Assembly (NCBI GenBank): GCA_002791575.1
Contig: PFXI01000002.1
Location: 1 to 43,481 of the forward strand
DNA length: 43,481 bases
Source of the DNA: Zetaproteobacteria bacterium CG_4_9_14_3_um_filter_54_145
GTDB lineage: Bacteria; Pseudomonadota; Zetaproteobacteria; Mariprofundales; Mariprofundaceae
Direction of reading: 5' to 3'
Notes under the pieces: generated by a model
What the model was told of the DNA's origin: nothing
Database searches by the model: none
The model's input: the letters and a program-made list of their open reading frames with translations, nothing else
Shown here: one piece after another, positions 14,560 to 26,441 of the stretch
Layout: every line of letters begins with the position of its first letter
How positions within the stretch are numbered: the stretch's first letter is position 1
Position numbers and translations under genes: made by a program

Positions 14560-14587
14560 TTGTAATTTAATATTACTATATTATGAT
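14560..14587 (+). promoter_or_regulatory. Putative promoter of the sqr leader
   Basis: TTGTAA (14560-14565), a 16-base AT-rich spacer and TATGAT (14582-14587) resemble a sigma-70 promoter: four and five matches to the consensus hexamers. Transcription would start near 14594, leaving a leader of about 325 bases before sqr. Confidence 0.45.
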
Positions 14588-14706
14588 ACGCAAAACTGAG
14601 TAAAACAGTATGGTAATAAGCGGTATGGCGGGAGCAGTATTGGCTTGACCTACAGGCAGTCGGTACCTTGTTTGGCAGCGATCGTGTTCGCTATTCAGTA
14701 TGGCTC

Positions 14707-14866
14707 ACCTGCCGCCATACAAGCAGGTATTAAACAGGATGCCCGGCATAACGACCGGGCATCCTGTCAGTTTCCATGCGGGTGTGTTACTGCAACACCT
14801 AGAGCCCGTATGGATGCGGGGCGAGGAGGAGCCCACCTCCTCGCTTCACTACTGCCGCAATGGCAG
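14707..14866 (+). ncRNA. Candidate structured RNA leader upstream of sqr
   Basis: Five hairpins follow each other. (1) 14707-14712 with 14723-14728, six pairs. (2) 14734-14746 with 14755-14767, thirteen perfect pairs and an eight-base loop. (3) 14774-14782 with 14805-14813, nine pairs, with an inner five-pair hairpin at 14784-14798. (4) 14821-14829 with 14836-14844, nine perfect pairs. (5) 14852-14856 with 14862-14866, five pairs. There is no T-run, and the sqr ribosome binding site lies 40 bases after the last hairpin. Small open frames cross the region but have no coding character. It could be a cis-acting leader of sqr or a processed small RNA. I recognise no known riboswitch class. Confidence 0.5.
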
Positions 14867-14920
14867 AATACTACAGGGGATCAACTATAACGGCCCCCGA
14901 TACAAAAGGAGAGGAATATT

Positions 14921-16198
14921 ATGGCCCATGTAGTCATTATTGGAGCGGGAATCGGGGGTATGCCGGCAGCTTATGAGATGAAAGAAGCCCTGAAAAAGTT
15001 TGGTGGTGAGCATGAAGTGACAGTTATATCCAATGTGGATTACTTTCATTTTACGCCATCCAATCCCTGGGTTGCCGTTGGTTGGCGTGACAAGGAACAG
15101 ATCAGTTTTCAGTGCTCTCCCTATCTGAACAAGAAGGGGATCAACTTCCTCTACTGTGGTGTGGATGAAATCCTTGCCGATGAGAGCAAGCTGCGCCTGG
15201 GTAATGGTCAGCATCTGGATTATGATTATCTGATTATCGCTACCGGTCCACGCCTGGCCTTTGAGCTGATTCCGGGCATGGGGCCGCAAGGTCATACCCA
15301 TTCAATCTGCCATGTCGATCACGCTGTTGAGGCGTATCACGCTTTTGAGGAGTTCTGCAAGAACCCCGGTCCGATCGTTGTCGGTGCGGTGCAGGGTGTA
15401 TCCTGCTATGGCCCGGCCTATGAGTATGCAGCCATTCTCGATACTGAGCTGCGTCGTCGCAAGATTCGCGATAAAGTACCGATGACCTTCATTACGCCCG
15501 AGCCGTATATCGGTCATCTGGGCCTTGGCGGTGTTGAAGATTCCAAGGCACTGCTGGAATCAGAGCTGAGAAAACGCGATATCAAGTTTATTACCAACTG
15601 TAAAACCGTGGCCGTGCACGAGCACACCATTGATTATGAAGAGGTTGATCGTCACGGTGAGGTGATTGCATCCGGATCACTGGATCATAATTTTGCTATG
15701 CTGATGCCGCCTTTCCGTGGTACGGGACCTGTGGCCAACTGCGAAGGACTGGTCAATCCGGCCGGTTTTGTGAACATCAATGAATTTCAACAGAGCCCCA
15801 CATTCAAGAATGTATTCGCTACCGGCGTCATCGTGGCTATTCCGCCTGTTGAGCCAACACCTCTGCCTGTCGGTACACCGAAGACCGGTTTTATGATCGA
15901 AACGATGACCACCGCCATTGTGCATAACATTATTCACGACCTGAAGGGTGAAGAACCGGAGCAATCCGGTACCTGGGGCGCAATCTGTTTGGCTGACTTT
16001 GGTGATGGTGGTGTGGCGCTGGTTGCCTATCCGCAGATTCCACCGCGCAATATGGTCTGGGCCAAGGGGGGGGCATGGGTGCATGTTGCCAAGGTGGGGT
16101 TCGAGAAATATTTCATGCGCAAGATGAAGACCGGTGTTTCCGAGCCATTCATTGAGAAGGCATTCCTCAAACGTATGGGTATCGAACGCCTTAAATAA
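14921..16198 (+). CDS. sqr: Sulfide:quinone oxidoreductase, type I
   Basis: A 425-residue flavoprotein that oxidises sulfide to zero-valent sulfur and passes electrons to membrane quinone. The FAD-binding motif GAGIGGMP starts at residue 8, and ATGP at about 107-110 is the second dinucleotide-fold motif. Cysteines 130, 162 and 356 match the three catalytic cysteines of the Acidithiobacillus ferrooxidans enzyme (128, 160 and 356 as I recall them). The C-terminal amphipathic region (FEKYFMRKMKTGVSEPF) is the membrane-attachment part seen in that enzyme. The ATG has AGGAG nine bases upstream. A long gene-free leader precedes it, and an imperfect terminator follows. Confidence 0.95.
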   Translation: MAHVVIIGAGIGGMPAAYEMKEALKKFGGEHEVTVISNVDYFHFTPSNPWVAVGWRDKEQISFQCSPYLNKKGINFLYCGVDEILADESKLRLGNGQHLDYDYLIIATGPRLAFELIPGMGPQGHTHSICHVDHAVEAYHAFEEFCKNPGPIVVGAVQGVSCYGPAYEYAAILDTELRRRKIRDKVPMTFITPEPYIGHLGLGGVEDSKALLESELRKRDIKFITNCKTVAVHEHTIDYEEVDRHGEVIASGSLDHNFAMLMPPFRGTGPVANCEGLVNPAGFVNINEFQQSPTFKNVFATGVIVAIPPVEPTPLPVGTPKTGFMIETMTTAIVHNIIHDLKGEEPEQSGTWGAICLADFGDGGVALVAYPQIPPRNMVWAKGGAWVHVAKVGFEKYFMRKMKTGVSEPFIEKAFLKRMGIERLK

Positions 16199-21721: not shown

Positions 21722-22720
21722 ATGAAAAGATATATATCATGGCTGGCCATTGCATGTATGACAGCGGCTGCGGGCCTTGCACAGGCAGGAGAGCCACCTG
21801 CCGGTATTCCGGAGGGGATGGGAGCCTTGCCATCAACTGTACCGGTACCTGCCGATAATCCGATGAGTGCAGCAAAAACTGAGCTGGGCAAGCAGTTGTA
21901 TCTGGATCCGGTGCTATCCAAGAGCGGCCATATATCGTGCAACTCCTGTCATAATCTGGGTACATGGGGTGTGGATAATCAGGCACGTTCCATCGGACAT
22001 AAATGGCAACGTGGTGGCCGTAACGCTCCAACATCATTCAATGCCGCCTTCTGGTCTGCCCAGTTCTGGGACGGACGTGCGCCGCAACTGGAAGATCAGG
22101 CCAAGGGGCCACCGATGAACCCGGTGGAAATGGCTGACGACAGTGAAGAGCAACTGATTACCCGTCTGCAGGCAGCCGGCTATACACCACTGTTTGAGCA
22201 GGTTTTCGGCAAGAACAGCCTGAATTTTGATAATATGGCCAAAGCGATCGGGGCATTTGAACGTACACTGATTACACCGGATGCGCCGTTTGACCTTTAT
22301 GTGCGCGGAGAGGGTGATATATCTGCTGCTGCCAAACGCGGTATGCGGAAAGTGGCTGATATCGGATGTACTGCCTGTCATAGCGGGCCGTTGTTTACCA
22401 ATAACACGTTCCAGCAATTCAACTATGGCAGTGATGACGGACGCAAGTCCGTGACCGGCAATGCCGACGATGATCATTATTTCCGTGTCCAGTCATGGCG
22501 CAATGTGGCGATGACTGCTCCCTATTTCCACGATGGTGCGGTGAAAACCCTGCCTGAGGCGGTACGCATCATGGCCAAGGTGCAGTTGGATACTATACTG
22601 TCAGACGCCGATGTCGTTGATATCGTAGCCTTTCTGGAAACACTGACAGGTACGCCACCACAGGTAACATACCCTGTATTCCCACGTCCGGCCGGTCATG
22701 CGCTGAACTGGCAGGACTAA
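21722..22720 (+). CDS. ccp: Di-heme cytochrome c peroxidase
   Basis: A 332-residue periplasmic enzyme of the CcpA/MauG family that reduces hydrogen peroxide with electrons from small c-type cytochromes. A signal peptide (to about residue 22) ends AQA-GE. The two heme c sites are CNSCH (73-77) and CTACH (216-220). RSIGHKWQRGGRNAPTSFNAAFW (about 89-111) and FWDGRAPQLEDQAKGP carry the residues usual around the peroxidatic heme. AGGAGG precedes the ATG. A strong terminator follows, so it is monocistronic. Confidence 0.95.
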   Translation: MKRYISWLAIACMTAAAGLAQAGEPPAGIPEGMGALPSTVPVPADNPMSAAKTELGKQLYLDPVLSKSGHISCNSCHNLGTWGVDNQARSIGHKWQRGGRNAPTSFNAAFWSAQFWDGRAPQLEDQAKGPPMNPVEMADDSEEQLITRLQAAGYTPLFEQVFGKNSLNFDNMAKAIGAFERTLITPDAPFDLYVRGEGDISAAAKRGMRKVADIGCTACHSGPLFTNNTFQQFNYGSDDGRKSVTGNADDDHYFRVQSWRNVAMTAPYFHDGAVKTLPEAVRIMAKVQLDTILSDADVVDIVAFLETLTGTPPQVTYPVFPRPAGHALNWQD

Positions 22721-22751
22721 ACAACGGGCTTTTCGCCCCGGCTTGAATTAG

Positions 22752-22801
22752 AGGGATGCAGGTAAACCGGAACAACAGCGGTTACCTGCATCCCTTTTTT
22801 T
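22752..22801 (+). terminator. Rho-independent terminator after ccp
   Basis: A long stem pairs 22752-22769 with about 22778-22795, twelve or more perfect pairs plus four after one bulged A, and is followed directly by seven T residues. It is the best terminator in the window. Confidence 0.9.
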
Positions 22802-22853
22802 GTTGGCATGTTGCGTATCGTATATCGAACGAGCGGATAAAAAGGAGCAGGTG

Positions 22854-23438
22854 ATGGACGTTTTCGACAAGGCTGTTGGTGATGAAGATATATTATCCCA
22901 TTTGGGCCCGCTGGCTGTGTTGGCTGGCAGGTGGGAAGGGGATAGCGGTATTGATGTGGCACTTGGTCGTAACGGGCCTGTACAAACAGCCTACCGTGAA
23001 CAGATGCTCTTTGAGCCAGTTGGACCGGTTGTCAACGGGCCGCAGCTGCTCTATGGCTTGCGCTATGCCACCACGGCATGGCCAAGCGGCTGCGATGAGC
23101 CGTTCCATGAAGAGGTTGGTTACTGGCTGTGGGATGCATCTGCCGGCCTGGTGATGCGCTGCTTCATCGTGCCGCGTGGTGTCGCCATCAATGCCGGTGG
23201 GGAGGCATCAGCCGCAGCAACCGCTTTTAGCATGCAGGCGACACTCGCTTCAAACACTTTCGGTATACTCTCCAATCCATTTCTCGATAAGGCATTCAGA
23301 ACAGTATGTTATGATCTGTCTATTGAGGTACATGATGATGCCAGCTTCTCTTACCATGAGGATACGCAGCTGCAGATTCATGGGCAGGATGTGATCTTTC
23401 ACCATACCGATCAGAACAGATTGCAGCGGGCAGCCTAG
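22854..23438 (+). CDS. Nitrobindin-like heme-binding beta-barrel protein
   Basis: A 194-residue protein of the nitrobindin/THAP4-like beta-barrel (DUF1794, FABP-like) family. The N-terminal signature LGPLAVLAGRWEGDSGIDVA (about 17-36) and the C-terminal HHTDQNRLQR are typical; a His in this last segment is the expected heme ligand. Heme binding, NO interaction or peroxynitrite isomerisation are known for the family. AAGGAG precedes ATG 22854 at proper spacing; an upstream in-frame start at 22800 lies in the terminator and is rejected. The next gene follows after a few bases. Confidence 0.8.
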   Translation: MDVFDKAVGDEDILSHLGPLAVLAGRWEGDSGIDVALGRNGPVQTAYREQMLFEPVGPVVNGPQLLYGLRYATTAWPSGCDEPFHEEVGYWLWDASAGLVMRCFIVPRGVAINAGGEASAAATAFSMQATLASNTFGILSNPFLDKAFRTVCYDLSIEVHDDASFSYHEDTQLQIHGQDVIFHHTDQNRLQRAA

Positions 23439-25154: not shown

Positions 25155-25833
25155 TCTGTCGATTGCCGTGATTGTACCGGTACTCAATGAGCAGGGCGCA
25201 CTACCGGCATTGATCAAGCGCATAGATGCCATGCCGTATGATGACGTGGTCATTGTTGATGGCGGATCAACAGATGGTAGTTGTCTGATACTGGATGCCT
25301 CTGCGCTGCGCTGGATCACTGCCCCCAGTGGCCGGGCGGCACAGATGAATGCAGGTGCAATCCTCTGCAGATCCGATATTCTGCTTTTTATTCACTCGGA
25401 TACAGAGATTGATGCATGCTGTTTTGCGGCAATAAAAGCGGCAATGCAGGATAGTGCTACGGTGGCAGGACGCTTTGATGTGACCCTCTCCGGCAGGCAC
25501 CCGGCTTTCCGGATCATCGAGCGGTTGATCAACCTGCGCTCGCGCCTGAGCGGTATCAGTACCGGTGATCAGTGCCTGTTTGTTCGTCGCTCTGTATTCG
25601 AGCGCATGGGTGGGTTTGCCCTGCAGCCTCTGATGGAAGACATCGAGTTCAGCAAGCGCTTGAAGCGGCGGGGGCGTATCGCCTGCCTGCATCAGCGCGT
25701 AACAACCAGCAGTCGTCGCTGGCAGCAGCACGGCATTATTAAAACAGTGCTGCTGATGTGGCGATTGCGCCTGTTGTACTGGTTGGGCGTGCCGGCCGAG
25801 CGTCTGGCAGCAGCATACCGGCAGGTGCGCTGA
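25144..25833 (+). CDS. Family 2 glycosyltransferase (TIGR04283 type)
   Basis: A 229-residue GT-A glycosyltransferase. LSIAVIVPVLNEQGALPALI is the N-terminal nucleotide-sugar-binding strand; VIVDGGSTDGS and LLFIHSDTEID (the DxD-like motif) follow; STGDQCLFVRRSVFERMGGF is typical of TIGR04283 ('rSAM/selenodomain-associated transferase 2'). The only start that keeps the first strand is TTG 25144, inside the end of the ATP-grasp gene. It overlaps the next gene by one base (TGATG). The pair with TIGR04282 is common, for instance in arsenosugar-type biosynthesis loci, but no radical SAM gene is here. Confidence 0.85.
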   Translation: MKADLSIAVIVPVLNEQGALPALIKRIDAMPYDDVVIVDGGSTDGSCLILDASALRWITAPSGRAAQMNAGAILCRSDILLFIHSDTEIDACCFAAIKAAMQDSATVAGRFDVTLSGRHPAFRIIERLINLRSRLSGISTGDQCLFVRRSVFERMGGFALQPLMEDIEFSKRLKRRGRIACLHQRVTTSSRRWQQHGIIKTVLLMWRLRLLYWLGVPAERLAAAYRQVR

Positions 25834-26441
25834 TGCAGCTGGAGCAGATACGGGTGATTATCATGTGCAAGGCGCCTGTAGCAGGGCGGGTCAAAACGCG
25901 GTTGATGTCGCGCTACTCGGCTGCAGAGGCCGCCCTGCTGCACAGGGCCATGGCGCAGACGGTCATTGATCGGGCTGCACGGCTGTTTGCAGATGTTGTG
26001 GTTGCCGCTGATGATATCACGCATCCCTTCTTTGCCGGCTTCGCTCTGCCCTGTTGTGCGCAGGGGGAGGGTGATCTGGGTGAGCGCATGCAACGGCAGG
26101 TGGATCATGGCTTTGCCACAGGTGCCAAAGCCGTGTTGCTGCTGGGTACTGATTCACCACAGATGGCAGACGCTCGCCTGTTGCAGGCTGCAAGCGCAGT
26201 AAAGCGTGCAGATGTCGTACTTGGACCGGTTGAGGATGGCGGCTATGATCTGGTCGCCATGCGCAGTGCTGAACCTATATTTACCAATGTCATCTGGTCA
26301 TCGGGCAAGGTGCTGGTGCAAACCATGGCGAATATCGGGCAACTCGGCCTTTCAGTCATACAACTGGAAACCGGTTTTGATGTCGATTTTCCTGAAGATG
26401 TGGATCGGGCTCGCCAATGTGGCTGGCAATCAGCATCTTGA
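25833..26441 (+). CDS. DUF2064/TIGR04282 nucleotidyl- or glycosyltransferase-like protein
   Basis: A 202-residue soluble protein of the TIGR04282 ('rSAM/selenodomain-associated transferase 1', DUF2064) group, related to nucleotide-sugar transferases. IIMCKAPVAGRVKTRLM (about 10-26) with the KTRL loop, then GDLGERMQRQVDHG, LLLGTDSPQM and the late LGPVEDGGYDLVAM are the group's motifs. ATG 25833 shares a base with the stop of the preceding gene. It has been linked to arsenosugar biosynthesis in some bacteria; here its partner enzymes are the ATP-grasp and TIGR04283 proteins, with no arsenic gene in sight. Confidence 0.85.
   Translation: MQLEQIRVIIMCKAPVAGRVKTRLMSRYSAAEAALLHRAMAQTVIDRAARLFADVVVAADDITHPFFAGFALPCCAQGEGDLGERMQRQVDHGFATGAKAVLLLGTDSPQMADARLLQAASAVKRADVVLGPVEDGGYDLVAMRSAEPIFTNVIWSSGKVLVQTMANIGQLGLSVIQLETGFDVDFPEDVDRARQCGWQSAS

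Follow-up and report, generated by a model that had tools for sequence, protein, structure and literature searches.

A candidate structured RNA family associated with the sulfide:quinone oxidoreductase gene sqr in Zetaproteobacteria

The window considered here, the whole stretch of 43,481 nucleotides that was analyzed, belongs by its relatives to the genus Mariprofundus (Zetaproteobacteria) and carries the gene sqr, whose product matches the sulfide-quinone reductase structure entries 3sz0/3kpk over its full length (E about 1e-149). Upstream of sqr lie three rhodanese-domain genes, one DUF302 gene, and one gene for a YgaP-like membrane protein, whereas a TPMT-like methyltransferase gene and a thioredoxin gene are found downstream. 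The features of the sqr leader are collected in Table 1.

Table 1. Positions of sqr and of the predicted features of its leader in the window
Feature	Position	Strand	Description	Basis
Likely sqr promoter	14560–14591	+	TTGTAA-16-TATGAT, within an AT-rich block common to Mariprofundus leaders	Consensus match and block conservation
First short stem	14707–14728	+	6 pairs, 14707–14712/14723–14728	No counterpart at the same place in relatives
Hairpin A	14734–14767	+	G+C-rich; 13 perfect pairs, 14734–14746/14755–14767	Hairpin of differing sequence in relatives
Hairpin B	14771–14816	+	Conserved core	Covariation, strand signal, covariance-model matches
Motif in hairpin B	14795–14803	+	ACACC-N-R-G-A/C, here ACACCTAGA	ACACC and G invariant in 16 of 16 elements
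Hairpin C	14818–14847	+	GGGY-led, directly after B; 14818–14829/14836–14847	Covaries
Hairpin D	14852–14866	+	Small 5-pair stem, 14852–14856/14862–14866	Counterpart in many, not all, relatives
Hairpin E	14876–14897	+	Just upstream of the ribosome-binding site	More widespread than A–C
Shine-Dalgarno region of sqr	14906–14914	+	AAGGAGAGG	Predicted unpaired
sqr	14921–16198	+	Type I sulfide:quinone oxidoreductase, 425 aa	Full-length match to solved structures

A promoter-like sequence had been proposed at 14560–14587; the match is present, but on its own it does not rise above chance (3 such sites versus 3.7 expected), and its support comes from the AT-rich block that is kept in relatives. This block, TTATTATATTACnATATTATnATACGC (window 14568–14591), is retained upstream of sqr or ygaP, being 86–96% conserved in L044, L046, L048, L050, and L065 and recognizable in L045 and L064, the latter of which has two copies. 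In L066, where it stands upstream of ygaP, the block forms a perfect palindrome, ATATTATTA-TTCGC-TAATAATAT, a possible candidate for a repressor operator. Control of sulfide genes by SqrR/BigR/YgaV is exerted through repression at the DNA level (PMC5823870, PMC9774250). The upstream AT-rich palindromic block could be a candidate operator of this type. The element described below resembles these regulators in its putative control of sulfide oxidation but would differ from them in acting separately, at the RNA level.

The original prediction described a dense series of perfect stems at 14707–14866, every one of which is present where it was placed. The minimum free energy of this segment is −88.2 kcal/mol, compared with −52.6 ± 4.4 kcal/mol for 200 dinucleotide shuffles (z = −8.1), none of which (0/200) folds as low. 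Among 2,167 segments of 160 nt across the 43 kb, it ranks lowest after correction for G+C content, at −5.8 sd against −3.4 sd for the next independent region, which confirms the observation. The strongest-folding regions after the sqr leader, 25621–25860 and 22661–22900 (about −3.3 sd), overlap predicted reading frames. The extent of the proposed RNA needs correction: hairpins A, B, and C constitute a conserved unit at 14734–14847, whereas the short stem at the start of the series lacks conservation and probably lies outside the element, and one further conserved hairpin, E, falls beyond the range originally given.

Within the conserved unit, hairpin A is followed after 3–5 nt by a short U run, which is the start of B. 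Hairpin B consists of a stem P1 of 11 pairs, including one G-U (14773–14783/14804–14814), an inner helix of five nested pairs (14784–14788/14794–14798), and a 3′ bulge (14799–14803). Hairpin C has 12 pairs, of which the nine adjoining the loop are perfect Watson-Crick, and carries no U run in the window.

To assess conservation, 33 zetaproteobacterial sqr leaders were inspected. In eleven, a regular-expression search for ACACC-N-R-G-A located the motif at approximately −100 to −220 relative to sqr, and the L056 leader has the variant ACACC-A-A-G-C. Each occurrence falls in a hairpin B, on the 3′ side; nearly all of these B hairpins have a long G+C-rich hairpin A before them, and a second G+C-rich hairpin, C, comes only a few bases later. 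In a structure-free MAFFT alignment of seven sequences, which were picked because plain MAFFT put them in register and therefore favor the structure somewhat, 97.4% of the cells of the 11-pair B stem are paired and 7 of the 11 pairs show two-sided changes; sliding the partner by 1–3 columns reduces pairing to 31–44%. As plain MAFFT misaligned the stems of several sequences, a covariance model was seeded from this subset. The resulting alignment of 13 elements is itself fitted to the structure; in it, 98.5% of B cells are paired (34–42% in slid controls), two-sided changes occur in 9 of 11 pairs, and only 0–1 of 500 shuffles reach as high. The comparison of homologous sqr leaders that had been suggested as a check on the prediction thus yields compensatory changes in 9 of the 11 B-stem pairs. 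From 17 rows, of which 16 are elements and one is a palindromic minus-strand row, RNAalifold again predicts these 11 B pairs, 9 of them with two-sided changes. At least 47 pair-state changes in the B stem are required on the sqr tree, whose branching within the main clade has weak support. Stem B is therefore kept by compensatory changes beyond both shuffled and slid controls, the comparative signature expected of a conserved structured RNA.

Hairpin C behaves similarly: when its sequences are aligned manually with GGGY as the anchor, standard pairs occupy 120 of 121 cells, and its fourth pair occurs as C-G (8), U-A (7), and U-G (1). Both hairpins also carry a strand signal. G-U cells far outnumber A-C cells (20 versus 1 in B, 8 versus 1 in C), and these counts show, indirectly, that the predicted RNA has a single transcribed strand, the plus strand, sense to sqr. 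The minus-strand model match in L071 was dismissed as the palindrome read backwards.

Among 78 Zetaproteobacteria (five genera), the covariance model finds one copy of the element in each of 16 genomes (E < 1e-3). A search with the same model recovered no convincing second copy elsewhere in these 16 genomes, and within a 399-genome sample that includes the Zetaproteobacteria it detected the element in none of the approximately 320 other Pseudomonadota. Weaker matches in G009, G022, G005, G014, and G028 (E 0.007–0.4) were taken as chance; those inspected, in G009, G022, and G014, fall in coding genes. The element always directly follows the upstream operon and precedes sqr in 14 of the 16 genomes, that of the window included, while the other two have no sqr. 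In one of them, G026 (L139), sqr has been deleted, with the leader, the start codon, and a few codons remaining; in the other, G093 (L140/L144), a short frame and then cydA lie downstream of the element. Both genomes are nearly complete and belong to a single genus, and the leader remnant of G026 (L139/L145) is fused to the next gene.

Conversely, 25 of the 39 Zetaproteobacteria that possess sqr lack the element, which indicates that it is not essential for sqr expression; M. micogutta and strain EBB-1 are among those whose sqr leaders lack it. The deepest branch of the main SQR clade carries the element, as do scattered other branches, and the gain and loss of the element on the sqr tree amount to 7 changes, or to a minimum of 4 when only branches with good support are relied on. 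This pattern is best read as that of an old element that was lost repeatedly. The order A-B-C is mostly kept, and hairpin A has a counterpart in 14 of 16 elements, being poor in L044 and missing in L064. L060, an sqr leader without the element, bears other long hairpins at a similar place (GGGAGCCC..GGGCTCCC; GCCTGAAAAACGAC..GTCGTTTTTCAGGGC), which suggests turnover of structure at the junction upstream of sqr.

A hairpin a few bases before the Shine-Dalgarno sequence, corresponding to hairpin E, occurs in 25 of 35 zetaproteobacterial sqr leaders versus 6% in shuffles, and in 3 of 38 sqr leaders from gamma- and betaproteobacteria. Hairpin E is G+C-rich, and its loop carries CATAGTG in many Mariprofundus.

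None of the 4,227 families of Rfam 15 matched at its gathering score, and relaxed searches with the window and 15 related loci returned chance-level matches only. The best sub-threshold match, Pxr sRNA (RF01812), scored 19.4 bits (E 0.33), whereas its gathering score is 80; this weak covariance-model similarity lies on the wrong, opposite strand and was attributed to chance. Compensatory changes in homologous leaders, combined with the lack of an Rfam match, uphold the original suggestion of an undescribed structured RNA. The element is similar to orphan riboswitch candidates and cis-regulatory leader motifs (PMC2864571, PMC8632094, PMC11109978) in having a conserved stem, an invariant and partly unpaired motif, and a position in the leader of a metabolic gene, and in being found by covariation; it differs from them in its association with a single gene, its restriction to one class, and its lack of a visible expression platform. 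The main text of these three structured-RNA surveys makes no mention of Mariprofundus, Zetaproteobacteria, or a relevant gene. Literature searches likewise returned nothing on Mariprofundus riboswitches, small RNAs of Zetaproteobacteria, or sqr riboswitches, although subscription papers were mostly beyond reach and a prior mention is possible.

On comparative evidence, then, 14734–14847 is a member of a real, uncatalogued structured RNA family of Zetaproteobacteria that is linked to sqr. Its best reading, toward which we lean with modest confidence, is regulation in cis, through leader or intercistronic control or through processing of the sqr message; position, strand, single copy, and single locus favor such action. 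Within the sqr message, the element would lie between sqr and the sulfur-handling genes that precede it (rhodaneses, DUF302, YgaP-like). In L043, L139, and others the element follows the stop codon of the upstream gene so closely that no promoter would fit between them, and is therefore intercistronic, while in Mariprofundus the AT-rich promoter-like block lies between the upstream genes and the element. For the upstream genes, hairpin A may serve as a leaky terminator or protect the 3′ end: the U run after it is full in L051 but otherwise short or shifted, and no terminator is called in the window, so that any termination would be leaky. The bulge of B, within ACACC-N-R-G-A/C, would be the recognition site; as the only sequence-invariant part, the motif probably makes the contact with a protein, a nuclease, a small molecule, or a target RNA. 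Hairpin C may be stacked on B as a clamp, hairpin E may keep the ribosome-binding site free, and A, B, C, and E would jointly determine the amount of sqr message that is produced or preserved in relation to that of the upstream genes.

This cis reading has to accommodate the two genomes that retain the element without sqr, as well as the 25 of 39 sqr genomes that lack it. By inspection, moreover, stems A, B, C, and E do not overlap, the Shine-Dalgarno sequence is free, and no conserved switching partner for it or for a terminator is seen. A conserved aptamer-like core does precede a metabolic gene, but mutually exclusive structures of an expression platform were not found, and a classical riboswitch is not supported because there is no conserved alternative pairing with the Shine-Dalgarno sequence or between the motif and C. 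Pairing of the motif CACC with GGGYG of hairpin C fails where C begins with GGGCG, and bulge-C pairing is inconsistent; C (CUCCU) could sequester the Shine-Dalgarno sequence in the window, but not in relatives. Two further candidates were rejected, namely CsrA binding, since GGA in loops is not conserved in the Mariprofundus type, and a leader peptide (an 81-aa TTG frame, 14645–14890), since B alone varies between 44 and 52 nt without keeping frame.

The main rival to cis action, possible but rather unlikely in our view, is a trans-acting small RNA made from, or cut out of, the sqr leader, in which ACACC-N-R-G-A/C of B would be the seed and C the 3′ end. An invariant motif beside freely changing stems does resemble a conserved seed, the element survives in the sqr-less G026 and G093, and in L064 a second AT-rich promoter-like block separates the element from sqr, so that the two could be transcribed separately. 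UUUUU follows hairpin C in L071; however, apart from this case and a weak run in L051, C lacks a U run, which would leave the small RNA without a terminator of its own in nearly all elements. Nor would it have its own promoter where the element directly follows an upstream gene, the promoter-like block being found mainly in Mariprofundus, and its position in front of sqr in 14 of 16 genomes, with no copy away from this locus, speaks against this rival.

An unlikely alternative is a plain chain of mRNA-stabilizing or terminating hairpins at an operon junction, with no specific partner. Hairpin A, free in sequence and terminator-like in L051, would fit such a chain and resembles intrinsic terminators and intercistronic stabilizing hairpins in its long G+C-rich stem, its occasional U run, and its location at an operon junction; in L054 and L057, two leaders that lack the element, a comparable hairpin carrying a U run is found by itself, and dense stable stems together with a free Shine-Dalgarno sequence would suit protection from RNases. 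Unlike these known hairpins, however, B and C are built to a fixed plan and include an invariant motif, with a U run mostly missing, and a plain chain leaves the unchanging ACACC and motif G, as well as the constant B-C order and tight spacing, unexplained. We regard as highly improbable that the structure reflects chance or a mobile or repeated palindromic element (REP/BIME-like or attC-like). Perfect G+C-rich palindromes between genes, as present here, do resemble REP units, but covariation and the G-U strand preference argue against this origin, as does the occurrence of one copy per genome in one place only, where a REP/BIME or other repeat would be expected in many copies.

A further reading, speculative and distinctly unlikely at present, is that B and C together form an RNA sensor of a new type, either a riboswitch or the target of an RNA-binding protein, that responds to sulfide, persulfide, or a redox/iron signal and sets sqr expression in iron-oxidizing Zetaproteobacteria. 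To our knowledge, no RNA is known to sense sulfide or persulfide in nature.

The element thus represents a statistically solid predicted RNA family without an Rfam entry, tied to one enzyme of sulfide oxidation, in a class for which our search found no literature on RNA regulation. Its cultured hosts include Mariprofundus ferrooxydans PV-1 and M. erugo, and with a covariance model, an invariant motif, and these hosts in hand, RNA-level control of sulfide oxidation in microaerophilic iron oxidizers may now be tested directly.
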